Shown here: positions 6,574-39,761 of the stretch, piece after piece
Position numbering within the stretch: position 1 is the stretch's first letter
Layout of the letters: every line of letters begins with the position of its first letter
From: an uncultured Flavobacteriaceae bacterium
GTDB taxonomy: Bacteria > Bacteroidota > Bacteroidia > Flavobacteriales > Flavobacteriaceae
DNA length: 64,000 nucleotides
NCBI GenBank assembly: GCA_937929935.1
Contig: CALFUL010000003.1
Coordinates: 1 to 64,000 of the forward strand
Direction: 5' to 3'
The notes under the pieces: model-generated
Seen by the model: the letters and a program-made list of their open reading frames with translations, nothing else
What the model was told of the DNA's origin: nothing
The model's database searches: none
Position numbers and translations under genes: made by a program

Positions 6574-8373
6574 ATGTCTACGACAAAAAATATTGCCATT
6601 ATTGCTCACGTTGACCACGGTAAAACAACCTTGGTTGATAAAATTATGTATCACTGTCAATTGTTTCGTGAGAATCAAAATACAGGAGATTTAATTTTAG
6701 ATAACAATGATCTTGAAAGAGAAAGAGGTATTACCATTACCTCGAAGAATGTTTCTGTTGTTTACAAAGGCACTAAGATTAATATTATTGATACCCCTGG
6801 TCACGCCGATTTTGGCGGAGAAGTAGAGCGTGTATTGAACATGGCTGATGGCGTATTGTTATTGGTTGATGCTTTTGAAGGTCCAATGCCACAAACGCGT
6901 TTTGTACTCCAAAAAGCGATCGATTTAGGGCTGAAACCTTGTGTGGTTATTAATAAAGTAGATAAGGAAAATTGTACACCTGAAGAGGTACATGAAAAGG
7001 TTTTTGATTTGATGTTCGAATTAGAAGCAGAAGAATGGCAGTTAGATTTTCCGACGGTATACGGTTCTGCAAAGCACAATTGGATGAGTGATGACTGGAA
7101 GAATGAAACCGATAATATCGAACCTTTGTTAGATATGGTTCTAGAGCATGTACCCACTTTCGAAGCTACTGAAGGAAATACGCAAATGTTGATTACCTCT
7201 TTAGATTTCTCTTCGTTTACCGGAAGAATTGCCATCGGAAGATTAACAAGAGGTTCATTGAAAGAAGGCCAACAGATTGCGTTAGTGAAAAGAGATGGTA
7301 GCATTGTAAAATCAAAAATTAAAGAACTTTTTGTATTTGAAGGTTTAGGCCGTAAAAAAGTACAGGAAGTTGTAACAGGAGATATATGTGCTTTGGTTGG
7401 TGTTGAAGGATTTGAAATTGGCGATACGGTTGCTGATTTAGAAAACCCTGAAGGGTTAAAAACTATCGCAATTGATGAGCCTACAATGAGTATGTTGTTT
7501 ACCATTAATGATAGTCCGTTTTTTGGTCAAGATGGTAAATTTGTAACCTCAAGACATATTAAAGAACGTTTAGAGCGTGAATTAGAAAAGAATTTAGCGC
7601 TGCGCGTTAATGAAACTGATAGTGCTGATAAATTTATGGTCTTTGGTCGTGGAGTATTGCATTTATCTGTTTTAATTGAAACCATGCGCCGTGAAGGGTA
7701 TGAATTGCAAATAGGGCAACCTCAAGTAATCATCAAAGAAATTGATGGTGTAAAATGTGAGCCTGTTGAAGCATTGACTATTGATCTACCAGAAACAGTT
7801 TCAGGTAGAGCAGTTGAAATGGTGTCTATTCGAAAAGGAGAGATGACCAGTATGGAAGCCAAAGGCAATCGAATGGTTTGTGAATTTTTGATTCCTTCAA
7901 GAGGAATTATTGGTTTGCGTAATCAATTGTTGACTGCTACCGCTGGTGAGGCAATTATGGCACACCGCTTTTTAGAATACCAACCTATGAAAGGCGATAT
8001 TCCGCAAAGACAAAATGGTTCTTTGGTTTCTATGGAAAGAGGAAAAGCGATTCCTTATTCAATCGATAAGCTTCAGGATCGTGGTAAGTTTTTTGTTGAT
8101 CCAGGAGAAGATATTTATGAAGGTCAAGTGATTGGCGAAAATTCTCGTGGCGATGATATGACTATCAACATCACTAAAACCAAAAAACTATCTAATGTTC
8201 GTTCTTCTGGTGCAGATGATAAGGCTAAAATTGTTCCGGCAATTAAGTTTTCTTTAGAAGAAGCATTAGAATATATTCAGAAAGATGAGTATGTTGAAGT
8301 AACACCTGCACACTTAAGGTTGCGAAAAATATATTTGACTGAAAATGAACGTAAGCGTAATAAGATAGCTTAG
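6574..8373 (+). CDS. typA: translational GTPase TypA/BipA
   Basis: AHVDHGKTTLVDKI, DTPGHADFGGEVERVL, NKVD and C-terminal BipA domain. Confidence 0.97.
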   Translation: MSTTKNIAIIAHVDHGKTTLVDKIMYHCQLFRENQNTGDLILDNNDLERERGITITSKNVSVVYKGTKINIIDTPGHADFGGEVERVLNMADGVLLLVDAFEGPMPQTRFVLQKAIDLGLKPCVVINKVDKENCTPEEVHEKVFDLMFELEAEEWQLDFPTVYGSAKHNWMSDDWKNETDNIEPLLDMVLEHVPTFEATEGNTQMLITSLDFSSFTGRIAIGRLTRGSLKEGQQIALVKRDGSIVKSKIKELFVFEGLGRKKVQEVVTGDICALVGVEGFEIGDTVADLENPEGLKTIAIDEPTMSMLFTINDSPFFGQDGKFVTSRHIKERLERELEKNLALRVNETDSADKFMVFGRGVLHLSVLIETMRREGYELQIGQPQVIIKEIDGVKCEPVEALTIDLPETVSGRAVEMVSIRKGEMTSMEAKGNRMVCEFLIPSRGIIGLRNQLLTATAGEAIMAHRFLEYQPMKGDIPQRQNGSLVSMERGKAIPYSIDKLQDRGKFFVDPGEDIYEGQVIGENSRGDDMTINITKTKKLSNVRSSGADDKAKIVPAIKFSLEEALEYIQKDEYVEVTPAHLRLRKIYLTENERKRNKIA

Positions 8374-8394: not shown

Positions 8395-8429
8395 AATCCT
8401 CAAATTGAATTCAATTTGAGGATTTTTTG
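8395..8429 (+). terminator. rho-independent terminator after typA
   Basis: Perfect palindrome AATCCTCAAATTGAATTCAATTTGAGGATT followed by a T run. Confidence 0.85.
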
Positions 8430-8449
8430 TTCATACCCTTTTTGCTCTT

Positions 8450-8606
8450 GTCATTTCGAGGTACGACGAATCTAACGGCTAGTAGTATAAACTAGTTATT
8501 TTTCTTCATGGATAAAAATCGAGGTAAGTATAAAGTATTTCGCATTAAAGCACCCGTATAGAGTGATTCAATTTTACTTGAGATTCCTCACTTTGTTCGG
8601 AAAGAC
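8450..8606. repeat. MITE-like intergenic element with imperfect terminal inverted repeats
   Basis: gtcatttcgaggtacgacgaatct at the left end versus agattcctcactttgttcggaaagac at the right end; a near copy of the right end occurs inverted at 31504-31529. Confidence 0.5.
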
Positions 8607-13300: not shown

Positions 13301-13328
13301 AATCAATTCTTCTGTGAACCCAAATTAA
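10317..13328 (+). CDS. large tetratricopeptide repeat protein
   Basis: 1003 aa with signal peptide and many degenerate TPRs. Confidence 0.85.
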   Translation: MVKKMNTLIPVLLGMLFFGFSQETKIYTHDQKEYQDALALYNNEQYQAAQTIFARVKNTTDNLEIKANSAYYEANAAVRLNQLGADYLMEDFVAKYPTSTKKNSAFADVAEYYFETGKYPYALKWYKKVNQTALSRKEMDKFNFNYGYSLYASKKTKQAENYLKKVTDSPIYGSQAKYYLGYISYQEDDYEEANERFDEITDPEILEEKMNYYQADLNFKLGNFEKAIALAKKQMPISNRSEKSELSKIIGESYFQLKQYDNAIAYLEDYQGKRGKWSNTDHYILGYCHYKKNDYENAIQEFNKIIGGTNSVSQNAYYHLAECYLKQNKKPEALNAFRNASQMIFSADIEKDAFLNYARLSYEIGNAYEPVPEVIASFLEKYPNDSHANEMKELLVDSYITSKNFEGAMTLLEKNRGYASNTVYQKVAYYRGLELFLETDYAAAAENFGKSLANAEDALFEARANYWKGESLFELNQFDEALSNYSSFKNSPLASSMSEYKDIDYNLGYTYFKKRDYANAITAYTNFTNASNAAIEKKNDAYLRMADSYFVTNKFWPALETYNKASNSREKDYAAFQKALCYGFVDRRESKIEVLSGFVNTYPQSSLKDDALFELGNTYIGSGQEQSGLQAYDRLIQGYRASSLVPQAMIRQGLVHYNASRNERALEKFKTVVRDYPKTQEAIQAVATAKLIYVDLGRVDEYAAWVENLDFVEVTDSELDNATFESAEKQNLEGKTDAAIRGYENYIKRFSNGLHIVKANFKLAQLYFGKGEKNNALSNYQYVADRGASEYAEQSLTRVCEIYIANKDYTSVLPYLERLEQQADIQQNKTFAQSNLMKGYYEQKNYERTITYAEKVLATPSIDNRIKADAKIMIARSAIATGDEAKAEIAYAEVLKIATGITAAEALYYDAYFKNKASDFKNSNTSVQKLAKDYSSYKEWGGKGLIILAKNHYALGDSYQATYILESVKTNFEDYPQIVSNAQKELSIIKAQESKINSSVNPN

Positions 13329-13335
13329 AATTAAA

Positions 13336-15111
13336 ATGTTGAGAACACATAAAATAAATAAACGGTTGCTTTTGAGCTTGGTATTTGTAATAAGCTTTTT
13401 AAATTACGCCGTTGCCCAAGATACTGATGAAGATATAGGCACAGAGACTGTAACCGTAACAAAAGCCTATACGCCAACTATAGCTGATGCGTTCAAAATT
13501 AAATCTGTTCCTGATTTAAATGATTCTATAGCGCTGCAAAAGAAATCAATAGAATACAGTATTTTTTCAGTACCCGTAGCCTCAACCTTTACGCCAGCGA
13601 AAGGGCAGGCATCAAAGGTTAAAAAAAGACCGCCGCCAAATTTATATAATTCATATGCTTCAGCCGGCGGAGGTAACCCAGCTAATTTGATGGCTAAATT
13701 TTATACAAGCCGTACTATTAGTAGAGAGTCAAGTTATACGCTAGGCTTAAGTCATAATTCATCACATTTAGATGTTGAGGGTGTTCAACTTGACAGTAAA
13801 TTTTCTAATTCAAAATTAGACGCGTCATACAAGAAAAGAGACCGTGATCTTGACTGGGGGGCTGATGCTGCTTTTCAACACCAATTGAGTAATTGGTACG
13901 GTTTGCCGTTAGGTGTTTTTGATGAAGCTTTAATAACGGGCATTGATTCGCAACAAACCTATTTTATGGCTGAGGCAGGTGCGCATATTAATATAGAGGA
14001 TGCCTATTTTGAGAAAGCAGCTGTGAAATATCGTCGTTTCTGGGATGCAACTGGATCTGCAGAAAATAGAGTAATTTTTGAACCGAGCTTTCAGTTTCCG
14101 CTTGTTGATGAAAATTTAGGAATCAATTTCAAAGTTGACTATGTCAACGGATCTTTTGAAAATGCAGACGTTAACAATACTCAAAATAATGCAGGTATTG
14201 AATATAGTCATTTGCAAGCAGGGGTAAACCCTAGTTTGACCATGTTGCGTGATGATTTATCAGTAGAATTAGGACTCAAATTTGTGTACGGTCTTGATAC
14301 TGATGCCAATAATAGTACTAACAATTTTTACATATACCCGGCCATTACAGCATCCTACAGGCTACTCAATAATTTTGCCATTGCCTATGCAGGTATTGAA
14401 GGCGACTTGGTACAAAATACCTACTATAATTTAGTAGAAAAAAACCCTTTTGTATCTCCTACATTAAACATTCAACCTACTGATAAACAATATGATTCTT
14501 ATATAGGTTTACGAGGTCAAATTTTTGCTAATTTGAGTTATAATATTAAGGGGTCATATACGGCTGAAAACCGTAAACCATTATTTAATTTGAATCCGCA
14601 GAATGTATCAAGAACTGATGAAAAGGGCTATAATTTTGGCAACTCATTTGAAGTGTTTTATGATGATATAAAAACCTTGGGCGTTTTTGGTGAATTGAAT
14701 ATTGATGTGAATCGTAATTTTACCCTAAGCCTTAATGGAGAGTATTATAATTACAATACTGAAACTGGTAACTCTGCCTGGAATTTACCTGAGCTCAAAG
14801 GTTCATTATTTCTAGATTATCAAATAGGAGAGCAATGGTATTTGGGTGCTAATTTATTCTATATTGGTGAACGACAAGATTTTTCTCAAATCGCACAATT
14901 GGGGGTGCAGCAAGCTGATTTTTTAAATACCATTATTACTCTTGATAGTTATTTTGATGCTAATGCACATTTAGGATATCGAGTTAATGATCAATTGTCA
15001 TTTTTTATAAAAGCAGCAAACATAGCTAATAATAATTATCAACGTTGGGCGAACACTCCGGTTCAGGGGTTTCAGCTTTTAGGGGGAGCTACTTATAAAT
15101 TTGATTTTTAA
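13336..15111 (+). CDS. TonB-dependent receptor-like outer membrane beta-barrel protein
   Basis: Signal peptide, VTVTKAYTPTIADAFKI N-terminal region, beta-barrel strands, C-terminal aromatic (FDF); 7 bp after the TPR gene. Confidence 0.7.
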   Translation: MLRTHKINKRLLLSLVFVISFLNYAVAQDTDEDIGTETVTVTKAYTPTIADAFKIKSVPDLNDSIALQKKSIEYSIFSVPVASTFTPAKGQASKVKKRPPPNLYNSYASAGGGNPANLMAKFYTSRTISRESSYTLGLSHNSSHLDVEGVQLDSKFSNSKLDASYKKRDRDLDWGADAAFQHQLSNWYGLPLGVFDEALITGIDSQQTYFMAEAGAHINIEDAYFEKAAVKYRRFWDATGSAENRVIFEPSFQFPLVDENLGINFKVDYVNGSFENADVNNTQNNAGIEYSHLQAGVNPSLTMLRDDLSVELGLKFVYGLDTDANNSTNNFYIYPAITASYRLLNNFAIAYAGIEGDLVQNTYYNLVEKNPFVSPTLNIQPTDKQYDSYIGLRGQIFANLSYNIKGSYTAENRKPLFNLNPQNVSRTDEKGYNFGNSFEVFYDDIKTLGVFGELNIDVNRNFTLSLNGEYYNYNTETGNSAWNLPELKGSLFLDYQIGEQWYLGANLFYIGERQDFSQIAQLGVQQADFLNTIITLDSYFDANAHLGYRVNDQLSFFIKAANIANNNYQRWANTPVQGFQLLGGATYKFDF

Positions 15112-15429
15112 GTTCGATCATGAACCTTATATTTTAGTGCACCACAAATTAGGTTGTATTGAAAGGCTAAATAATGAAAAAGAATGAACATCTCGTCAAA
15201 CCTTAGTAGCACCCTAGCAAAAGGGTAACTTCATTTACTCATCATGAAAATACAGTTCGCATAAAAGACTACTAGAATAGCCTAAACTAAAAGTGAATGA
15301 AATTCGCCCTTAGTTACTATTAATCAAAACCTTCAGGCCTACCGTTCATCGAAAAATTCAAATTTTTTAAATAAATCGTCGTTTCTATTCAATATAAAGT
15401 AAGTTATTTCTTACAAATTTGAATATATA

Positions 15430-31472: not shown

Positions 31473-31503
31473 ATGGCTTCTTTTCGTCATTTCAGTCTAA
31501 CTT

Positions 31504-31529
31504 GTCATTCCGAACAAAGTGAGGAATCT
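31504..31529. repeat. dispersed repeat arm, inverted near copy of 8581-8606
   Basis: gtcattccgaacaaagtgaggaatct versus the reverse complement of agattcctcactttgttcggaaagac. Confidence 0.6.
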
Positions 31530-31701
31530 TATGTTTTAGTGATGTTTCTAGAAAATTCTTTGTTATTTACCACTGTTACAACGGCCGGGGAGAAATTTTA
31601 ATATTTTTTACTTTTTAAAATACAAATGAATTTTTAAAAAAGAAGTTAACGCTTAGGTTTCTTAATGGGAATAAAAACATGGCAACTAATATGGGGGTAA
31701 A

Positions 31702-33225
31702 CTATTTCAACGAAAATTTATGTATTAGCAGTTTTTCATTATTCTCAGGTTTCACAACTGTAATAATTCCGTTTTCGGTGAAGTGACTTAATAAGGTGTA
31801 ACCGTCTTCTGAATCAGAAATTTTTTCAATAAATTCTTTATAATTACTATCATACAAGCAGGCTAAATATGAATTTTTATCTAGGGTTAATTTTTCAGAA
31901 AACTCTTCTTTCAAAATCATACCTGAGTATTCATTGGTTTTTGTATTTAAAAATCGATTTACTCTTTTGTTCTTATACGTTCCTATCTCTTTTTGGTTAA
32001 TTATTTCTCCTGTATTTTTGTCTATTACATAAAATTTTAGGTGTTCTTGGGTGCTATATGGATAAAGTGATAAGGCTACAAAATTTTTGGTGATATCTAC
32101 AAAAACATGTACCAGATTTCTGTTAAAATTATGAAGCTTAAAATCGGGTAAGTTTTGAAAGGTATTCCATAATAGTGTACCATTAGTATCAAATTTTTGC
32201 AACATAAAGGCATCATCTTTTTCTTCTAGTTTCAATATTGAATGCGAATAAAACGCATCCTCATTTTTACTGTAATTCAATTGGGCCATTGATTCAGTAG
32301 TAAATAGTGTCGAGCCAGCATGGTTTAAATCGGCTCCGCGTTCACCATGATAATAAGTTGAATTATCTCCAAGTCGAGCGACACGAAATGCTTCGCTTTT
32401 GCTAGGGCGTTTAATTTCGACTATTCTATCCCCAAGAACTTCGGCCTTATAATTATATGTAATTACGCGGTATACTTTTATTTTCTCTTTTGAACGTTTA
32501 ATGATATCTGGTATGGCATCCTCATGCAAGGCGTATGATAATAAAAACCTATTTTCATCAAAATATAAAAGCTTTGGATCACTAATAAAATCACAGCAAT
32601 CATCATTAATCACTAGTTTATGATAGTCTTCTTTTAAGGTTTCTAATTCTTTATGGTACAAAAAGAAATCAGTATCAGCATAATTGCGCCTATTGAAATT
32701 TGACCAACCTTCTTTTCTACCAATAGATAAAAAGTGTTTATCAGTTACAAACTCTTTTGATAAAAAATCTATAGAACTTGAAAATTCTGAAAGTTTTCTA
32801 ATTGGATTTTCCTCTATGTCGCCATTAATATCCATATCGCTGAACTCAAACTCCTTAGTATTCCAAATAAAATAATTCCTTAATTTTTTATACAAAATGT
32901 TCTTTCCGGTATGTGAAAAAAACATTGATAGATTAGACGCAGTTCTGGGTGCAGTATCTGCAGTCAATGGGTTGCTCAAATACTCATCAGGAACTTTCAT
33001 TTTCTCAGCACTTGTATAGGTCAGTATATCTAAATTATCATCAACTATGGTATATACTGAAGTGTTCTCTTTTTTACCCTTTTTAAAAACTGAGAATGCC
33101 CCTGTTTGATGAAATCTATAATCAATAACTTTTAGCCCATCTGAAAGTGATATTTCAATGGTTTTTTCTTGTGATATTGCCAAACCAGTGTTGAACAAAA
33201 ACAGTAAGCCTAATAAGTATTTCAT
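31702..33225 (-). CDS. secreted hypothetical protein
   Basis: 507 aa ORF with signal peptide MKYLLGLLFLFNTGLAISQ; no recognised domain. Confidence 0.6.
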   Translation of the reverse strand: MKYLLGLLFLFNTGLAISQEKTIEISLSDGLKVIDYRFHQTGAFSVFKKGKKENTSVYTIVDDNLDILTYTSAEKMKVPDEYLSNPLTADTAPRTASNLSMFFSHTGKNILYKKLRNYFIWNTKEFEFSDMDINGDIEENPIRKLSEFSSSIDFLSKEFVTDKHFLSIGRKEGWSNFNRRNYADTDFFLYHKELETLKEDYHKLVINDDCCDFISDPKLLYFDENRFLLSYALHEDAIPDIIKRSKEKIKVYRVITYNYKAEVLGDRIVEIKRPSKSEAFRVARLGDNSTYYHGERGADLNHAGSTLFTTESMAQLNYSKNEDAFYSHSILKLEEKDDAFMLQKFDTNGTLLWNTFQNLPDFKLHNFNRNLVHVFVDITKNFVALSLYPYSTQEHLKFYVIDKNTGEIINQKEIGTYKNKRVNRFLNTKTNEYSGMILKEEFSEKLTLDKNSYLACLYDSNYKEFIEKISDSEDGYTLLSHFTENGIITVVKPENNEKLLIHKFSLK

Positions 33226-33499
33226 AGTACTGATTTCAAATTATTTTAAATTTCAAGCGAAGTTGTCATTAAATTATTGACCTTCTAAAAATACACCTAA
33301 GAACTTGGCTATCAAAATTTGTATTTTAAAAGGTAATTTTCATAGTCAAACTACGCATTTTAATACCTGTTTTTAGTTGTTAAGGCTTTTCAAAAAACAC
33401 AATTTTACGCATAACCGTGCACTAAAAGTTGCTAGTCTATTCGTCACAAAATGAAACTATTACAGGTATTAGGTAGAATGTAACTACTATCCCTTTGGT

Positions 33500-34501
33500 A
33501 TGTTGCAACCTAACCGCAATTTTGACTCGCAAGAATACCGCTATGGGTTTCAGGGGCAAGAAAAAGATAGCGAGCTGAAGGGAGAAGGTAATTCTTTGAA
33601 TTATAAGTACCGTATGCATGATCCAAGAATTGGAAGGTTTTTTGCTGTGGATTTAATGACCGCTAAATATCCTTTTTATAGTCCATATGCATTCAGTGGA
33701 AATAGAGTGATCGATGCAATCGAACTGGAAGGTCTTCAACCTGGCAGTTCAAGACTTGTGAATAAAGTAAAAATAAGAAAGCATAGTGGTGATGTTAAAG
33801 AAAAGATGGATTTAATTTCAGTTGATAGACATGGTAAGGAAAGGACCGAACGTAATGTAACACCTGGTGTTCAAGTATTAAGAGAAGGTGAGATTGGTGG
33901 CGGAGAAATAATGAAAAGAATTACTTATGAACAAATGGATGTTGCATCTGAAAATGGTTTATGGAAGTTTAAAAAGAGAGAATTGTATATAAAAGTTGTA
34001 TTACCAGATATTGGATTTGTATCAAGCCATACTAACAATATAGCCGTTGATGAGGATAATAGTTTTGGAGTAGGTGGAAAAAAACTAAAACCTGGAGAAT
34101 CGACTTCTCAAGATGTACATAACCCTTGGTCTCTTTTTGCCACTGTTAATACCACTCCTTTTACTGGCACACTTTATATCGATGATTATATCCTGAATTC
34201 AGATTCAGAAATTCTAGAGTCTTTGAAAATATTTAGTACTATCAAGAAAGCTTTGAAAGAAAATGCAAATGCAAGAGTTATAATTTACTATCCTTCAGAT
34301 CGAGAAGTTAATAAAAGGTTTAGAGGAGAACATAAATATAAGGTTTTTGATGAAATTTATAAAAATGCACATAGACTCATGGAGCAATATTTTGGAAGGA
34401 AAATACCCTCTGTGAAAAATTCAGATAGAGTAAGGGTCCAAATAACGAATACATCTAAAAAATCCAAAAAAACTGACGAAGCTGTCGAAGAAGAAAAATA
34501 G
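33500..34501 (+). CDS. orphan Rhs core/tip ORF 1 (Rhs-associated core fragment with variable C-terminal tip of unknown activity)
   Basis: MLQPNRNFDSQEYRYGFQGQEKDSELKGEGNSLNYKYRMHDPRIGRFFAVD Rhs core; in-frame stop about 9 codons upstream of the ATG; no YD repeats. Confidence 0.8.
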   Translation: MLQPNRNFDSQEYRYGFQGQEKDSELKGEGNSLNYKYRMHDPRIGRFFAVDLMTAKYPFYSPYAFSGNRVIDAIELEGLQPGSSRLVNKVKIRKHSGDVKEKMDLISVDRHGKERTERNVTPGVQVLREGEIGGGEIMKRITYEQMDVASENGLWKFKKRELYIKVVLPDIGFVSSHTNNIAVDEDNSFGVGGKKLKPGESTSQDVHNPWSLFATVNTTPFTGTLYIDDYILNSDSEILESLKIFSTIKKALKENANARVIIYYPSDREVNKRFRGEHKYKVFDEIYKNAHRLMEQYFGRKIPSVKNSDRVRVQITNTSKKSKKTDEAVEEEK

Positions 34502-34541
34502 TATAAAGCCTTTTGGCATATTATTTGTAAATTATACAATT

Positions 34542-35156
34542 ATGAAAATAACTATGATAATCTTTTTTTTAGTAAGCTTTGTTTGTTTTTCACAAGAGAC
34601 TTCAGTTGGAGCAGATTACTTTTCATTTGAGAATGTTGAATATATAGTCGTGGATGAGCAGAAAAATGAAAATGTTTTTTATCAAAGAGTTTATTCCAAT
34701 AAGTTCATTAATCAAAACAAAGATTTGCTTAAGGAAGGAATGGCAGAAATTTTAGGAGATTTTTCGTTTTCAGACGATAGTTTTGAATATTCTTATTTTA
34801 TAAAAACAATTTTACGCTATGATAATGATTCTTTTGATAAAGAACTATTGGTAAATCTAGACACATCAAAATTAATACCCAAGGATGAATTCCTTTCAGA
34901 ATATGATTATATTGAGCAAGTTGAATGTAATTCTTCGATTGAACTAGCTAAGCTAGAAAATTCTTTAAATTTGATCCGATATGATGATTATGCTATGGTT
35001 ATAGATGCCAATTGTAATGATATTATTTTTCACGAATTTAATTTTACTTGGAAGTATAAGTTACATTTGAGTAAGGACAAATCAAGACTTTTATTGAATT
35101 GCAATAATGACTATTTATATATTTGGAACTTACCTAACGAAAGTACTCAAAATTGA
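34542..35156 (+). CDS. hypothetical protein with signal peptide, candidate partner of Rhs tip 1
   Basis: ORF 40 bp downstream on the same strand; MKITMIIFFLVSFVCFSQ signal peptide; role inferred from position only. Confidence 0.45.
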   Translation: MKITMIIFFLVSFVCFSQETSVGADYFSFENVEYIVVDEQKNENVFYQRVYSNKFINQNKDLLKEGMAEILGDFSFSDDSFEYSYFIKTILRYDNDSFDKELLVNLDTSKLIPKDEFLSEYDYIEQVECNSSIELAKLENSLNLIRYDDYAMVIDANCNDIIFHEFNFTWKYKLHLSKDKSRLLLNCNNDYLYIWNLPNESTQN

Positions 35157-35313
35157 AAAGGGTTATAATTTATAATGGTTGTATATTTTAAAAATAAAGT
35201 GAAAAAGAGAATTCAAAAGTTGAGCGTTAAATTCACTTTATTGACTGCATAGTAGCAAGCATTTATCTCTATGTTACTGGCGGTATTTCCTTTTCATTTA
35301 TTTCTTATAAAAT

Positions 35314-36360
35314 TCAAAAAACCTCTAACTGATTATGCACTTTTTCAATTTCTTTGTCTAGATATGGTTGGGCGAAATGCACATAGCGGTAGAAAGAATT
35401 ACTATTTGTACTATGTCCGCTAATATTACGAACCAAATGTTCAGGCATACCCAAAATGAGCATTGTAGTTATTGCTGTGCGGCGCATCATATGTGAACTC
35501 ATTTTATCGCAAAAACGAATGCCATTAGTATTGTTTTTTGGGTTAATTTTTATTGATTTGCCATGACGTTCTCGAACTAAATCAATAGGTTGCGTAAAAT
35601 TTGCTTTTTCACCAATACACTTCAATTTTTTATTAAAACTAGAAATGCTGATAGGTGTAAATAACATTTTTTTTGCATTTGTTCTATGAGTCTTTTTTAT
35701 GATTTCAACCGCATAAGTCGGTAACTTTATGGTACTAAGAGTTTTTGTTTTTTTACTTTTTATGGTCAAATAGTATGAACCATTTAGTTTTTGAATGTTT
35801 CTATTTGTCAATCTAAAAATATCTGAAAAACGAAGGCCGGTACTACAGCCAAATACAAAGATGTCTTTTACTCTTTTCTCACTCATTGTCAGCTTGGTGT
35901 CAAAATTTTGGTCGTGAATTAAAAACTTTAGTTGACTTGGGTTTAAAACCAGCACTTCAATTGACTCTTTTCGAACATAAAAGAGTTTATAAAATACACC
36001 CACATCAATATTTTTATCATGCCTTAGGTAAAGAAAAAATGTGCGTATTTGTTTTAATGTATTGCCTACATAATTATCATAGCAACCATTTTTGTACATG
36101 AATTGTGTAAATTTTCGATAGAACTTTTTCCAGTAATTCTTTTCAGAGGTCAGTTCTCTTTGGGTCATTTTTCGAACATCACAAATGCGTAATTCAAATT
36201 CATTAGTTTCAGAAAACCGCACTAAATTTTTTAATGCATAAGTATAGTTGTCAATCGTACCTGAAGCTAAACGGCTACCATCTTTTTTTAAGCGTTTACC
36301 CGTTTTAGACTCTGAAATAAATTGTTCAAATAGCGGCACCAATGGTCTTGTTTTTTTCAT
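35314..36360 (-). CDS. tyrosine recombinase/integrase
   Basis: Catalytic pattern GCSTGLRFSDI, HMMRRTAIT, GHSTNSNSFYRYVHF; N-terminal SAM-like domain; start trimmed to ATG at 36360. Confidence 0.85.
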   Translation of the reverse strand: MKKTRPLVPLFEQFISESKTGKRLKKDGSRLASGTIDNYTYALKNLVRFSETNEFELRICDVRKMTQRELTSEKNYWKKFYRKFTQFMYKNGCYDNYVGNTLKQIRTFFLYLRHDKNIDVGVFYKLFYVRKESIEVLVLNPSQLKFLIHDQNFDTKLTMSEKRVKDIFVFGCSTGLRFSDIFRLTNRNIQKLNGSYYLTIKSKKTKTLSTIKLPTYAVEIIKKTHRTNAKKMLFTPISISSFNKKLKCIGEKANFTQPIDLVRERHGKSIKINPKNNTNGIRFCDKMSSHMMRRTAITTMLILGMPEHLVRNISGHSTNSNSFYRYVHFAQPYLDKEIEKVHNQLEVF

Positions 36361-36469
36361 AATCAGTTTTTGGTTCTGGGTAAAATACAAAAACCATTGC
36401 TTTCGCAATGGTTAAGTCATTTTTATGTGATATGGTCTTACCTATAGGGTTAAGCCAACGATTGTAAGA

Positions 36470-37057
36470 CTAACGATTCTTACTTTTCCATTCTTCTAGC
36501 ATTTTTATAAATTCTTTTGTACTATTCTTTTTTACACTTTCAGGCATACGCCAATTCTTAACATTTTGAGGTTCATCTGTCTGAATTATCAATTCGTCCA
36601 AAAATTCTTTAAAAGAACTATTTATTTTGATTAAGTTTTCATTTTTGGCTTCATGATGAAAGTAGTAAATTTCACCATACTTATCAGCATTCAAACAAAT
36701 GCAAATTAAATCCCCAGATTCACCATCGCAAAATGGGATAAAACCATAAGGTATTTGCTGTTCATGCACAGCTAACAATTTTTGAATGGACTGTTTTGAT
36801 TCTACATTGAAAGAATAAAAATAATCAACAGTTAAATTTCCATCTATGAAACTACTTATTCTATTTTTCACTGACTTCTTAACTAATTTATTAAATGAAA
36901 AAGGAGCATACTTAATAATGAAATTTCTAAAAAAATCAGGAAATAATACATCATTTGATTTCTCAAAAAAGACAATATCAGATTCTAGGTTTTTTTCCTC
37001 ATCTAAGTAATCTCTTATACCTCCTAAATTCTTGAATATTTTTTCGACTTCTTTCAT
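36470..37057 (-). CDS. SUKH (SMI1/KNR4)-like immunity protein
   Basis: IPYGFIPFCDGESGDLICICLNADKYGEIYYFHHE matches the SUKH signature; 2 bp downstream of the Rhs nuclease tip ORF. Confidence 0.75.
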   Translation of the reverse strand: MKEVEKIFKNLGGIRDYLDEEKNLESDIVFFEKSNDVLFPDFFRNFIIKYAPFSFNKLVKKSVKNRISSFIDGNLTVDYFYSFNVESKQSIQKLLAVHEQQIPYGFIPFCDGESGDLICICLNADKYGEIYYFHHEAKNENLIKINSSFKEFLDELIIQTDEPQNVKNWRMPESVKKNSTKEFIKMLEEWKSKNR

Positions 37058-37059
37058 CT

Positions 37060-38115
37060 TTATTGATTTCTTAATTGTGAAGCTCCACCAGTGTGAGGTA
37101 TGTTATTCAAAGTAGTAGGTACTAACTGAATTGTCTCACCTCCACTATGATGAGGAGTCAAATTATTTTCTTTTAAGAATGTTTGGGCCTCTTTCTGTGT
37201 TTTAAAACCATAAATTTCTTTCATTTTATTTAGAATTTTACCAGTATCACTGCTTGTACCTTGAAGGCCTGGTATATCAAATTCTGAAACTTTCCATTTA
37301 CTAAAATCGGCTTGACCATTTTTGTATGGAATACCTTCTCCTTTTGTAATTTCCAATACTTCATCGCTAGTAGAATACCAAGTACTATTACCTCTTTCAC
37401 CAGACCACTTTCCATTATTAATGGGTGTATGCTTGACATTAAATTTATAACTAAGTTTGGTCTTAAATAAAATTTTGTATGATTTTAACAATGTTCCAAG
37501 TGCCAACTCACTAGCTGCCAACTCTATGGCTACATCTTTTGAATCACCGGGAGTGCCATATTCACCGTACCAAATTGTTTGCCAAAAACTTCTATCTATG
37601 GGTCTAAGAAAATGTACATTCTTTTTTTCCGTATAAAATTTCCCAGATGCTCTACTTTCGTAATTATTAATGTCAAAATGAGAATAATATATTTCAAAAT
37701 TATAGAAAACAGCTCGATATCTATTCATATCACCATCCTCAATAATTGTTTTTATTTTAGTAACATTTGGAGCAAAAAATAAATCAAGAGTTCCTTTCCC
37801 GAGTCCATATTCATTGTCTGATGCGACATCAATTACAGGTTCCGATGCAGTTTCATAGAAAATTCTAATACGTTCTTCTAAACCATCTAAATCATCAGCA
37901 ATCACGGGTTTGTTTCCTGCAAATTGATAAGGTGTATAGTGTGGATAAGAACTTGTTAAAGGGTCTTCACTAAGAAACTTGCCTAACCTTGCATCATAAA
38001 TTCTAAACCCGTAATCATATTGAACACCTTGCCCTTTTACCTCATCATCTTTCTCTTTACCGTTGAACCCATATCTATACTCTTGGCTATCAAAGTTGCG
38101 GTTTGGTTGCAACAT
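37060..38115 (-). CDS. orphan Rhs core/tip ORF 2 with C-terminal HNH/Endo VII-type nuclease toxin domain
   Basis: MLQPNRNFDSQEYRYGFNGKEKDDEVKGQGVQYDYGFRIYDARLGKFLSEDPL core; C-terminal LTPHHSGGETIQLVPTTLNNIPHTGGAS resembles HNH-family toxin domains. Confidence 0.8.
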   Translation of the reverse strand: MLQPNRNFDSQEYRYGFNGKEKDDEVKGQGVQYDYGFRIYDARLGKFLSEDPLTSSYPHYTPYQFAGNKPVIADDLDGLEERIRIFYETASEPVIDVASDNEYGLGKGTLDLFFAPNVTKIKTIIEDGDMNRYRAVFYNFEIYYSHFDINNYESRASGKFYTEKKNVHFLRPIDRSFWQTIWYGEYGTPGDSKDVAIELAASELALGTLLKSYKILFKTKLSYKFNVKHTPINNGKWSGERGNSTWYSTSDEVLEITKGEGIPYKNGQADFSKWKVSEFDIPGLQGTSSDTGKILNKMKEIYGFKTQKEAQTFLKENNLTPHHSGGETIQLVPTTLNNIPHTGGASQLRNQ

Positions 38116-38159
38116 ACCAAAGGCCTATTGAATGGTGCGTTTTCAAAGAATGCCTTTAA

Positions 38160-38196
38160 CTTAAAAACCACGACCGTTATGGTCGTGGTTTTTAAG
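38160..38196 (-). terminator. perfect 16-bp-arm hairpin between two Rhs cassettes
   Basis: CTTAAAAACCACGACC-GTTAT-GGTCGTGGTTTTTAAG read directly; function as terminator inferred. Confidence 0.65.
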
Positions 38197-38211
38197 CTAA
38201 TTACTATGCCA

Positions 38212-38239
38212 GTAGACACTCGTTACAAACGAGTGCTAG
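38212..38239. repeat. REP-like element: GTAG followed by bulged hairpin
   Basis: GTAG-A-CACTCGT-TACAA-ACGAGTG-CTAGC; 7-bp perfect stem extended by TAG/CTA with a bulged A. Confidence 0.5.
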
Positions 38240-38251
38240 CGGGTGGATAAT

Positions 38252-38725
38252 CTATTCTATTCCTAGATCACTTATTATTGAACCTATGTCTAAATCATCA
38301 TTTTGGTCGTCATATAAATAATCGTCATTATTTAATACAATAATCTCAATCTTTGATTTCAACTTATCCACTTCAGATGCTTCAATATCATAAATTCTTA
38401 AAAAATCGGTTAAGATAAGAAAGATAGAATTTATATACGATTTGATACTATCCTTTGAGTAAACTATTTCTTCATAAGGTAACCAAAATCTATAAGTAGT
38501 AAAATTATTTTTTTTATCGAAAATAGGCTCAGATAAAAACGCCTTTTTTACACTTTTGCCAGTAGTTATTTCAATGCACACAAAATCAACATCTGTTTTC
38601 CTATAAATATTTCTAGGTTTAAGAATATCTTCAATAATTAAATCTCTAATCAAATTATCTACTTTATGAGATATTTTAAAACTGAACTTGGGTTCATTAT
38701 ACCAACTACTCATTACTAATTTCAT
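38252..38725 (-). CDS. hypothetical protein, candidate immunity to Rhs tip 3
   Basis: Acidic C-terminus (NNDDYLYDDQNDDLDIG); directly downstream of Rhs ORF 3; role inferred from position. Confidence 0.5.
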   Translation of the reverse strand: MKLVMSSWYNEPKFSFKISHKVDNLIRDLIIEDILKPRNIYRKTDVDFVCIEITTGKSVKKAFLSEPIFDKKNNFTTYRFWLPYEEIVYSKDSIKSYINSIFLILTDFLRIYDIEASEVDKLKSKIEIIVLNNDDYLYDDQNDDLDIGSIISDLGIE

Positions 38726-38733
38726 AATTTCAT

Positions 38734-39717
38734 CTATTCTTTTGGAATGGTTACTCCTGGATGGTTTTGATTCCCTTTCGGAAATTTCCCATTTTTATTA
38801 ACATAATTCTGGACTGCTTTTGTTTCAATTTTTTTCACGTCTAAAGTACTTATATTTTTATTCTCATAAATAACATTACCTGAGACTCTTTTAGTTGGAT
38901 TTTCTTTTATGAGAGTATTTATTTGGCTTTGTAATCGATTAGGCTTGCCCGTTGTTTTTGATAAATCTGTCATATCCGCTTTACCATATTTATAAAGTTT
39001 ACCGTCAATTTTGATTTGATAAACTGCCTGATAGCCAACATAGTTATTATCATTTTTATGCAAAACGGTATAAACCGGGTTTTTAGGCGTAGTGTTTTTG
39101 TATGTGGTACTACTTACTTTTTTACTTAGAACCAGATTTGCAATTACCTCTATCGTCCTCATATCGGTCAATATTTCGGCAGTGTCTTCTAGTTGTTGTA
39201 AGGCAGGGGTCTCAAGATGATAATCAATATTATCGGTAAAATATGCAGCAGTAGGAGAAACTAAATCATTATGAAGATCGTATTGCTTCTGTCCAGTAAA
39301 CATCCAATATGTATTATTGATTATTCCACTTGAGGCATTATAAGCATCAACTCCTAGATTCGGAATTACACTTAAAATGTTATACGAAGCATTATCCAAA
39401 CGTTGCAAAAACGAACCTGAGCCCTTCTTAAATACAGGTTTGTAATCATTTTTTTCAAGGTAAGGAGAAATCTGTTCTTCTAATCCTTCCAACTCAACGA
39501 ATCTTATGACCTTGTTACCAGCAAATTGATATGACGAATACCATGGGTATTGATGTGCCAACGGATCCACCGCAAAGAACCTACCCACTCTCGGGTCATG
39601 CATACGGTACTTATAGTTCACAGAATTACCCTCGCCTTTCAGCTCGCTATCTATCTCTTGCCCTTGAAACCCATAGCGGTATTCTTGAGAATCAAAGTTA
39701 CGGTTTGGTTGCAACAT
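38734..39717 (-). CDS. orphan Rhs core/tip ORF 3 with putative URI/GIY-YIG-like nuclease tip
   Basis: MLQPNRNFDSQEYRYGFQGQEIDSELKGEGNSVNYKYRMHDPRVGRFFAVDPL core; C-terminal YQAVYQIKIDGKLYKYGKADMT...RLQSQINTLIKENPTKRV...VKKIETKAVQNYVNKNGKFPKGNQNHP. Confidence 0.7.
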   Translation of the reverse strand: MLQPNRNFDSQEYRYGFQGQEIDSELKGEGNSVNYKYRMHDPRVGRFFAVDPLAHQYPWYSSYQFAGNKVIRFVELEGLEEQISPYLEKNDYKPVFKKGSGSFLQRLDNASYNILSVIPNLGVDAYNASSGIINNTYWMFTGQKQYDLHNDLVSPTAAYFTDNIDYHLETPALQQLEDTAEILTDMRTIEVIANLVLSKKVSSTTYKNTTPKNPVYTVLHKNDNNYVGYQAVYQIKIDGKLYKYGKADMTDLSKTTGKPNRLQSQINTLIKENPTKRVSGNVIYENKNISTLDVKKIETKAVQNYVNKNGKFPKGNQNHPGVTIPKE

Positions 39718-39761
39718 ACCAAAGGGATAGTAGTAATGTTGAACCCCTAAACCACTACAAT

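Follow-up and report, generated by a model that had tools for sequence, protein, structure and literature searches.

In the shufflon of plasmid R64 (Rci and pilV), the Rci recombinase swaps alternative C-terminal segments of a fixed N-terminal body, and in Bacteroides the recombinase Tsr0667 shuffles SusC/SusD, giving alternative surface-protein alleles (both PMC11852207). Displacement of the C-terminal ends of Rhs proteins, with orphan tips whose core fragments are of variable length, was described in enterobacteria by Jackson et al. 2009 (PMC2935791), who proposed homologous recombination, and arrays of orphan tips have been described in Ornithobacterium hominis (PMC6421346, PMC13183296). 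Where orphan Rhs tips come from, and whether they can be re-expressed, has been a question since their first description. Recombinase-driven switching of Rhs tips was not found in the literature, an earlier mention being possible in NAR 2023 (gkac1166), reportedly a large survey of gene-altering inversions.

The locus analysed here lies in a window of 64,000 nucleotides (positions 1 to 64,000 of contig CALFUL010000003.1, from an uncultured Flavobacteriaceae bacterium). It comprises three headless Rhs tips with a common 5′ core (one, tip 1, on the plus strand and the other two on the minus strand), two candidate immunity genes and a SUKH gene, three copies of a short site and an intact tyrosine recombinase, with no Rhs body. 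As a whole, we hold it highly probable that this is best explained by a recombinase dedicated to Rhs loci, which would invert DNA at a site in the Rhs core, the window carrying a headless version of the system. The features are as follows.

31475-39761, unstranded, approximate extent: DNA absent from five genus mates, in which secDF and the ABC gene are convergent neighbours
33472-33711, plus: left arm of a 240-bp inverted repeat, Rhs core of tip 1 (partner 39506-39745)
33492-33510, plus: putative recombination site copy 1, CCTTTGGTATGTTGCAACC, at the start of tip 1 (exact copy)
33500-34501, plus: headless Rhs tip 1, core fragment and unknown C-terminal domain (TIGR03696, E 5.5e-7, just under cutoff)
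34542-35156, plus: candidate immunity gene of tip 1 (imm1), directly 3′ of tip 1 (no Pfam match)
35314-36360, minus: tyrosine recombinase, Rhs-tip-associated family (PF00589, family alignment, catalytic residues, Foldseek)
36392-36413, minus: terminator-like hairpin after the SUKH gene, before the integrase (fold of 36360-36500, minus strand, z -2.3)
36435-36470, unstranded: 7-bp inverted repeat of the initial annotation (chance level, outside the system)
36470-37057, minus: SUKH-family immunity gene of tip 2 (SUKH_6, 1.4e-13; SMI1_KNR4, 1.9e-12)
37060-38115, minus: headless Rhs tip 2, WHH-type nuclease (TIGR03696, 2e-11; WHH, 1.4e-6)
38105-38123, minus: putative recombination site copy 2, at the start of tip 2 (inverted to copy 1, direct to copy 3)
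38156-38200, minus: hairpin ending the tip 3 cassette, before site copy 2 (20-bp arms, 95% complementary)
38252-38725, minus: candidate immunity gene of tip 3, directly 3′ of tip 3 (no family match)
38734-39717, minus: headless Rhs tip 3 (TIGR03696, 5.6e-9)
39506-39745, minus: right arm of the 240-bp inverted repeat, Rhs core of tip 3 (partner 33472-33711)
39707-39725, minus: putative recombination site copy 3, at the start of tip 3 (inverted to copy 1)

The recombinase reading frame is intact (348 aa, minus strand, start codon ATG 36360) and sits, as the initial annotation had it, between imm1 and the SUKH gene. The frame of 35314-36480 given there captured the right gene but placed its start too far upstream: the alignment of the family begins at ATG 36360, the open frame itself extending to TTG 36408. 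That the gene encodes an integrase with the expected catalytic pattern was borne out by a Pfam match to PF00589 above cutoff (E 3e-11) and by alignment of the window protein with 74 relatives, R177, K204, H290, R293, H316 and Y326 being invariant in 75/75 intact members; it belongs to the tyrosine recombinase/phage integrase family (PF00589, R-K-H-x-x-R-H-Y). The best Foldseek matches of an AlphaFold model (pLDDT 76.5) in the PDB were XerH, Tn1549 Int and Cre, with the tyrosine-recombinase fold; a search of PDB sequences with the family profile gave no match. The window's genome assembly holds a single copy of the gene.

All three headless tips carry, at their first codons, an exact copy of the 19-bp sequence CCTTTGGTATGTTGCAACC, and no further copy was found elsewhere in the window or in the 3.1-Mb assembly at ≤3 mismatches. 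The left flank of copy 2, CATTCTTTGAAAACGCACCATTCAATAG, resembles the left arms of internal cassettes at other loci, and copy 3 lies ~36 bp from the stop codon of the ABC-ATPase gene. Tips 1 and 3 moreover form a 240-bp inverted repeat (78% complementary ungapped, 88% over 170 bp); the initial annotation had missed both this repeat and the site shared by the three tip starts. The tips can be classed as Rhs orphan tip cassettes, having TIGR03696 matches (that of tip 1 slightly under cutoff), a WHH nuclease with its SUKH gene and no body upstream, and the three copies of the site, as in many relatives, provide the repeated short inverted sites at a constant/variable boundary that characterize a shufflon.

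A different sequence had been proposed as an attachment or crossover site, or else as a terminator shared with the end of the SUKH gene, namely a 7-bp inverted repeat just upstream of the recombinase start. Its arms, GTCTTAC (36435-36441) and GTAAGAC (36464-36470), are present as letters, the right one overlapping the SUKH stop codon, but repeats of this kind (7 bp, spacers ≤30) occur at chance level, 36 in the surrounding 5 kb as against 18-31 in shuffles, and the pair is missing from the predicted fold of 36360-36500, minus strand. It was rejected as the crossover, which instead maps to the Rhs core codons at tip starts. The stable local structure is a different hairpin, AACCATTGC/GCAATGGTT at 36392-36413, which is terminator-like, reading from SUKH.

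Among 60 near genomes there was one close relative of the recombinase (58% identity), from another taxonomic family and likewise lying between Rhs tips. An order-level sample and a scan of 84,980 species genomes yielded the loci of 80 relatives, from Flavobacteriaceae and Chitinophagaceae, with 45-66% identity to the window recombinase. Rhs tip cores, detected with an Rhs-core profile, adjoined the recombinase in 71/80 (73/80 at a laxer threshold), and in each of the 7/80 without a tip match a contig end lay no further than 1.3 kb away; no Rhs tip was found within ~8 kb of 20 other tyrosine recombinases of related genomes (0/20). To judge from these sequences, the best explanation would be a Bacteroidota recombinase family devoted to Rhs loci, of which the window protein is a member.

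Individual relatives showed peculiarities of their own. A plasmid record (NZ_CP109997) carries a 62% relative of the recombinase beside pilin and secretion genes. Locus L081 (7660-9995), 91% identical to L139 over 7.7 kb, has a full-length Rhs gene but lacks an orphan tip and retains only a C-terminal remnant of the recombinase; it looks like a decayed relative, as if the switch had been locked. In L074 (8596-11018), repeats of ~100 bp flank the recombinase in inverted orientation and a small ORF looks like a REP-associated transposase; these repeats are probably unrelated to the switch. Repeats of ~100 bp flanking the recombinase in Flavobacterium loci were also considered as att sites and rejected, since they read as terminators and dispersed REP-like repeats. 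In a metagenome-assembled genome (L053), two tips have the same 127-bp head (1-127 and 8410-8536, 100% identical), which implies that a cassette leader was duplicated.

The loci commonly followed one plan, with a full-length Rhs gene (the part ahead of the core mostly measuring 1,200-2,900 aa) carrying tip A and immunity gene A, then the recombinase, then immunity gene B and tip B on the opposite strand, the recombinase thus usually lying between the tip of the full-length gene and an inverted orphan tip. Convergent inverted tips flanked it in 45/72 loci with a tip, the window included, and cassette arrays in direct orientation occurred at L082, L096, L110 and L143. Were inversion to take place at tip starts, a recombinase inside the inverted pair should face either way relative to the Rhs body, and in the 24 loci of this kind the body indeed lay to the left in 12 and to the right in 12; in the eight loci where the recombinase lay outside the pair, where inversion cannot turn the gene, its orientation to the body was fixed (8:0; Fisher p 0.014 for the difference, with loci counted singly and shared ancestry ignored). 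In these relatives (24 inside, 8 outside) the full-length Rhs gene would be the expressed body whose C-terminal end is switched, as in a shufflon; no such body was found in the window genome. At L089 (8493-17876), two inverted headless tips enclose genes that by eye resemble TrkA/TrkH-type housekeeping genes, and inversion there would turn ~9 kb of unrelated genes.

Inversion was seen between genomes. A segment of 4,808 bp, ordered tip-immunity-recombinase-immunity-tip, is 99.96% identical between Flavobacterium sp. P3160 (L115) and F. circumlabens P5626 (L153) and stands in opposite orientations in the two, the flanks (95.8%, 99.9% and 87%) aligning on the opposite strand to the segment. Both breakpoints fall inside the 19-bp sequence CTTTTGGAATGCTGGTACC, the flanks differing one base to its left and the tips one base to its right, and this crossover corresponds to CCTTTGGTATGTTGCAACC of the window. 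The recombinase is also inverted between colinear flanks in L074 compared with L076 (93% flank) and in L090 compared with L091 (88% and 86% flanks), and all these relatives of the window species show, as a shufflon does, a segment in both orientations; a second orientation was not seen in the window's own species. No Rhs body was found within 8 kb in L115/L153, and flipping can therefore occur without an Rhs gene. Compared with its near-identical counterpart in L115, the recombinase frame of L153 (10001-10825) is broken (a single gap in 4,808 bp), which is either real loss or a sequencing error. By eye, the two-tip module of L115 lies beside a second recombinase-like gene and mobilisation-like genes (6887-8098 and 13306-15278), and the flipped module may ride on a mobilizable element.

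The site falls within the Rhs core codons that specify (DYY)PFGM, the starting point of every toxin tip, and part of its conservation may be coding constraint, since it overlaps codons under protein-level selection. In some forty inverted-pair loci, the homology on the left side of paired sites usually ended at (G)ATTACTAT, 7-12 bases before the PFG codons, the shared sequence continuing for a variable length into the tip. Internal array cassettes retain the last bases of the site alone (for example GCCTTTGG, window tip 2), suggesting that exchange occurs at or just to the right of CC. A GTTCTT motif preceded the site, spaced by 17/18 or 34/35 bases, in 66/107 orphans, where shuffles averaged 1.8, and in 12/34 bodies, where they averaged 0.6; it may be an arm site for the recombinase or have a role in transcription. 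Many loci also have, ahead of their tip starts, a GTTCTTTNACATAA-like motif, often after TATATTTG, whose distance from internal cassettes is fixed; it resembles a promoter and boxA-like element as well as an arm site.

Contig ends gave possible signs of ongoing switching, as 26/50 of those ≤10 kb from a recombinase coincided with a tip start or lay no more than 160 bp from one. Two contigs, L088 and L137, begin and end exactly at GATTACTATCC, with exact terminal repeats of 26 and 32 bp. Short-read assemblers normally cross repeats of this length, so that such breaks suggest the presence of both orientations in the sequenced DNA and, read in this way, suggest that both junctions coexisted in the L088 and L137 cultures.

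Comparison of these genomes shows the association of recombinase and tips, the conserved site, sharp junctions and an inversion with breakpoints in 19 bp, and very probably the mechanism of the family is a shufflon-like inversion that swaps Rhs toxin-immunity cassettes. A typical locus would hold a full-length Rhs gene ending in tip A and its immunity gene, accompanied by an inverted, silent cassette of tip B and immunity gene B. The recombinase would act on the short site at the tip starts, within the Rhs core codons, and recombination between two inverted sites would flip the segment, after which the Rhs body would be joined in frame to tip B and immunity gene B, tip A becoming a silent spare. 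Arrays of directly oriented cassettes should also permit excision, and in the window the predicted flips are 33492/39725 or 33492/38123. We infer that it is this recombinase that would catalyse inversion, that it may do so at a useful frequency in culture and that the toxin delivered would change as a result. The suggestion of the initial annotation that the recombinase shuffles Rhs cassettes is thereby strongly favoured at the level of the family, by co-occurrence, orientation and an inversion mapped to 19 bp, though not at the 7-bp site put forward for it. That new cassettes would be acquired, as against residents shuffled, is more speculative; an integron-like trade, in which the recombinase would also excise cassette circles and insert foreign ones at the core site, with headless modules as mobile reservoirs, seems rather unlikely, and would, if true, mean that competing strains and species exchange toxin tips.

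The same arrangements might have been produced by RecA-dependent homologous recombination between repeated Rhs cores, in a displacement of the type that Jackson et al. 2009 proposed for enterobacterial tips (PMC2935791), with the recombinase a bystander. Identical stretches exceed 100 bp in several loci, long enough for RecA, and paired cores share as many as 223 identical bases in some; at the L115/L153 breakpoints, however, identity amounts to just 19 bp, and left junctions end at nearly the same bases across unrelated loci, where Jackson's core fragments vary in length. As such recombination would also leave unexplained the near-universal presence of a single recombinase family and the spaced GTTCTT motif, we consider it improbable. 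Tyrosine recombinases often integrate into conserved genes, and it could be argued from this habit, and from the second recombinase-like and mobilisation-like genes seen by eye beside the two-tip module of L115, that the gene belongs to an independent mobile element landing in Rhs genes, its presence among tips reflecting insertion preference. Most loci, though, have no cargo besides tips and immunity genes, and the tip-start sites are the same whether the recombinase lies inside the tip pair or outside it. Its phage matches are weak (<27% identity), its neighbours in the window are tips, immunity candidates and housekeeping genes, and neither attL/attR of its own nor the phage or conjugation genes of a prophage or ICE accompany it. 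Independent insertion of the integrase with its own att sites, which the initial annotation had named as the outcome that would tell against it, was not what the comparison showed: the entire cluster is missing from five genus mates, and neither a separate att pair around just the integrase nor long direct repeats bounding it were found. An element of this kind is thus very improbable, and inversion by a recombinase dedicated to Rhs loci is preferred.

How the window copy stands to this family is a separate matter. The cluster is inserted between secDF and the ABC-ATPase gene, which in the five genus mates are convergent neighbours with just a terminator between them, and the window genome has ~8.3 kb extra. 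Within this DNA is also an unrelated-looking 507-aa gene of no known family (31702-33225). A search of the window genome assembly (85% complete) for an Rhs body found none: matches on C34 and C13 were rejected as thrombospondin-type low-complexity repeats, and C1:1922 is another tip, more distantly related, before whose core the frame runs for little more than 100 aa. Tip switching therefore cannot be functional in the genome as assembled, where the tips have no body to be expressed through unless one lies in the missing 15%, and the window copy is not classed as a working shufflon, since the expressed body is lacking; it is probably a body-less or displaced derivative of such a locus. It might further be a dead remnant left after loss of the Rhs gene, a reading that is limited to the window copy and can stand beside the family mechanism. 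The lack of a body, the one recombinase copy and the mere three tips speak for this; but the recombinase, tip and immunity frames are all open, the three 19-bp sites are letter-perfect, headless modules elsewhere still flip (L115/L153) and 15% of the genome is missing, and we regard a dead remnant as a serious possibility that is somewhat doubtful on balance.

The recombinase, its mapped 19-bp site and the naturally inverted genomes make toxin-tip switching directly testable. If the reading is correct, clonal flavobacterial populations could carry mixed toxin-immunity types, the 'displaced' tips of many Bacteroidota genomes would count as live spares, not debris, and a recombinase family with a short, coding-compatible site would be added to those described.

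Compared with known systems, the Rhs loci most resemble in layout the R64 shufflon, in which one tyrosine recombinase likewise serves several short inverted and direct sites where the constant part of a coding frame meets the variable one; the likeness is one of layout, and switching at the Rhs loci is deduced from genome comparison. They differ in that what is swapped is a toxin tip, each with an immunity gene, that the recombinase usually lies inside the invertible segment and that the sites are in Rhs core codons. Integrons (IntI, attC) also combine a tyrosine recombinase with direct cassette arrays, as found in some of the present loci (L082, L096, L110, L143), but here cassettes stand in inverted orientation on either side of the recombinase and no attC-like folded site was identified; cassette ends carry terminator-like hairpins, the junction itself being a short linear site. 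The window protein is no integron integrase by model NF040815, scoring 38 bits against a cutoff of 220. Tsr0667 too is a Bacteroidota recombinase generating alternative alleles, although it switches promoters and alleles of outer-membrane proteins rather than toxin tips, and is compared here by function. The orphan tips of Jackson et al. (PMC2935791) and O. hominis (PMC6421346, PMC13183296) share with ours a core fragment, a variable tip and a downstream gene, displaced from a large rhs gene. Whereas those papers invoke homologous recombination or unspecified displacement, the present family has a dedicated recombinase, an inverted arrangement and a fixed 19-bp crossover, and so provides a mechanism for orphan tips of the enterobacterial and Ornithobacterium kind.
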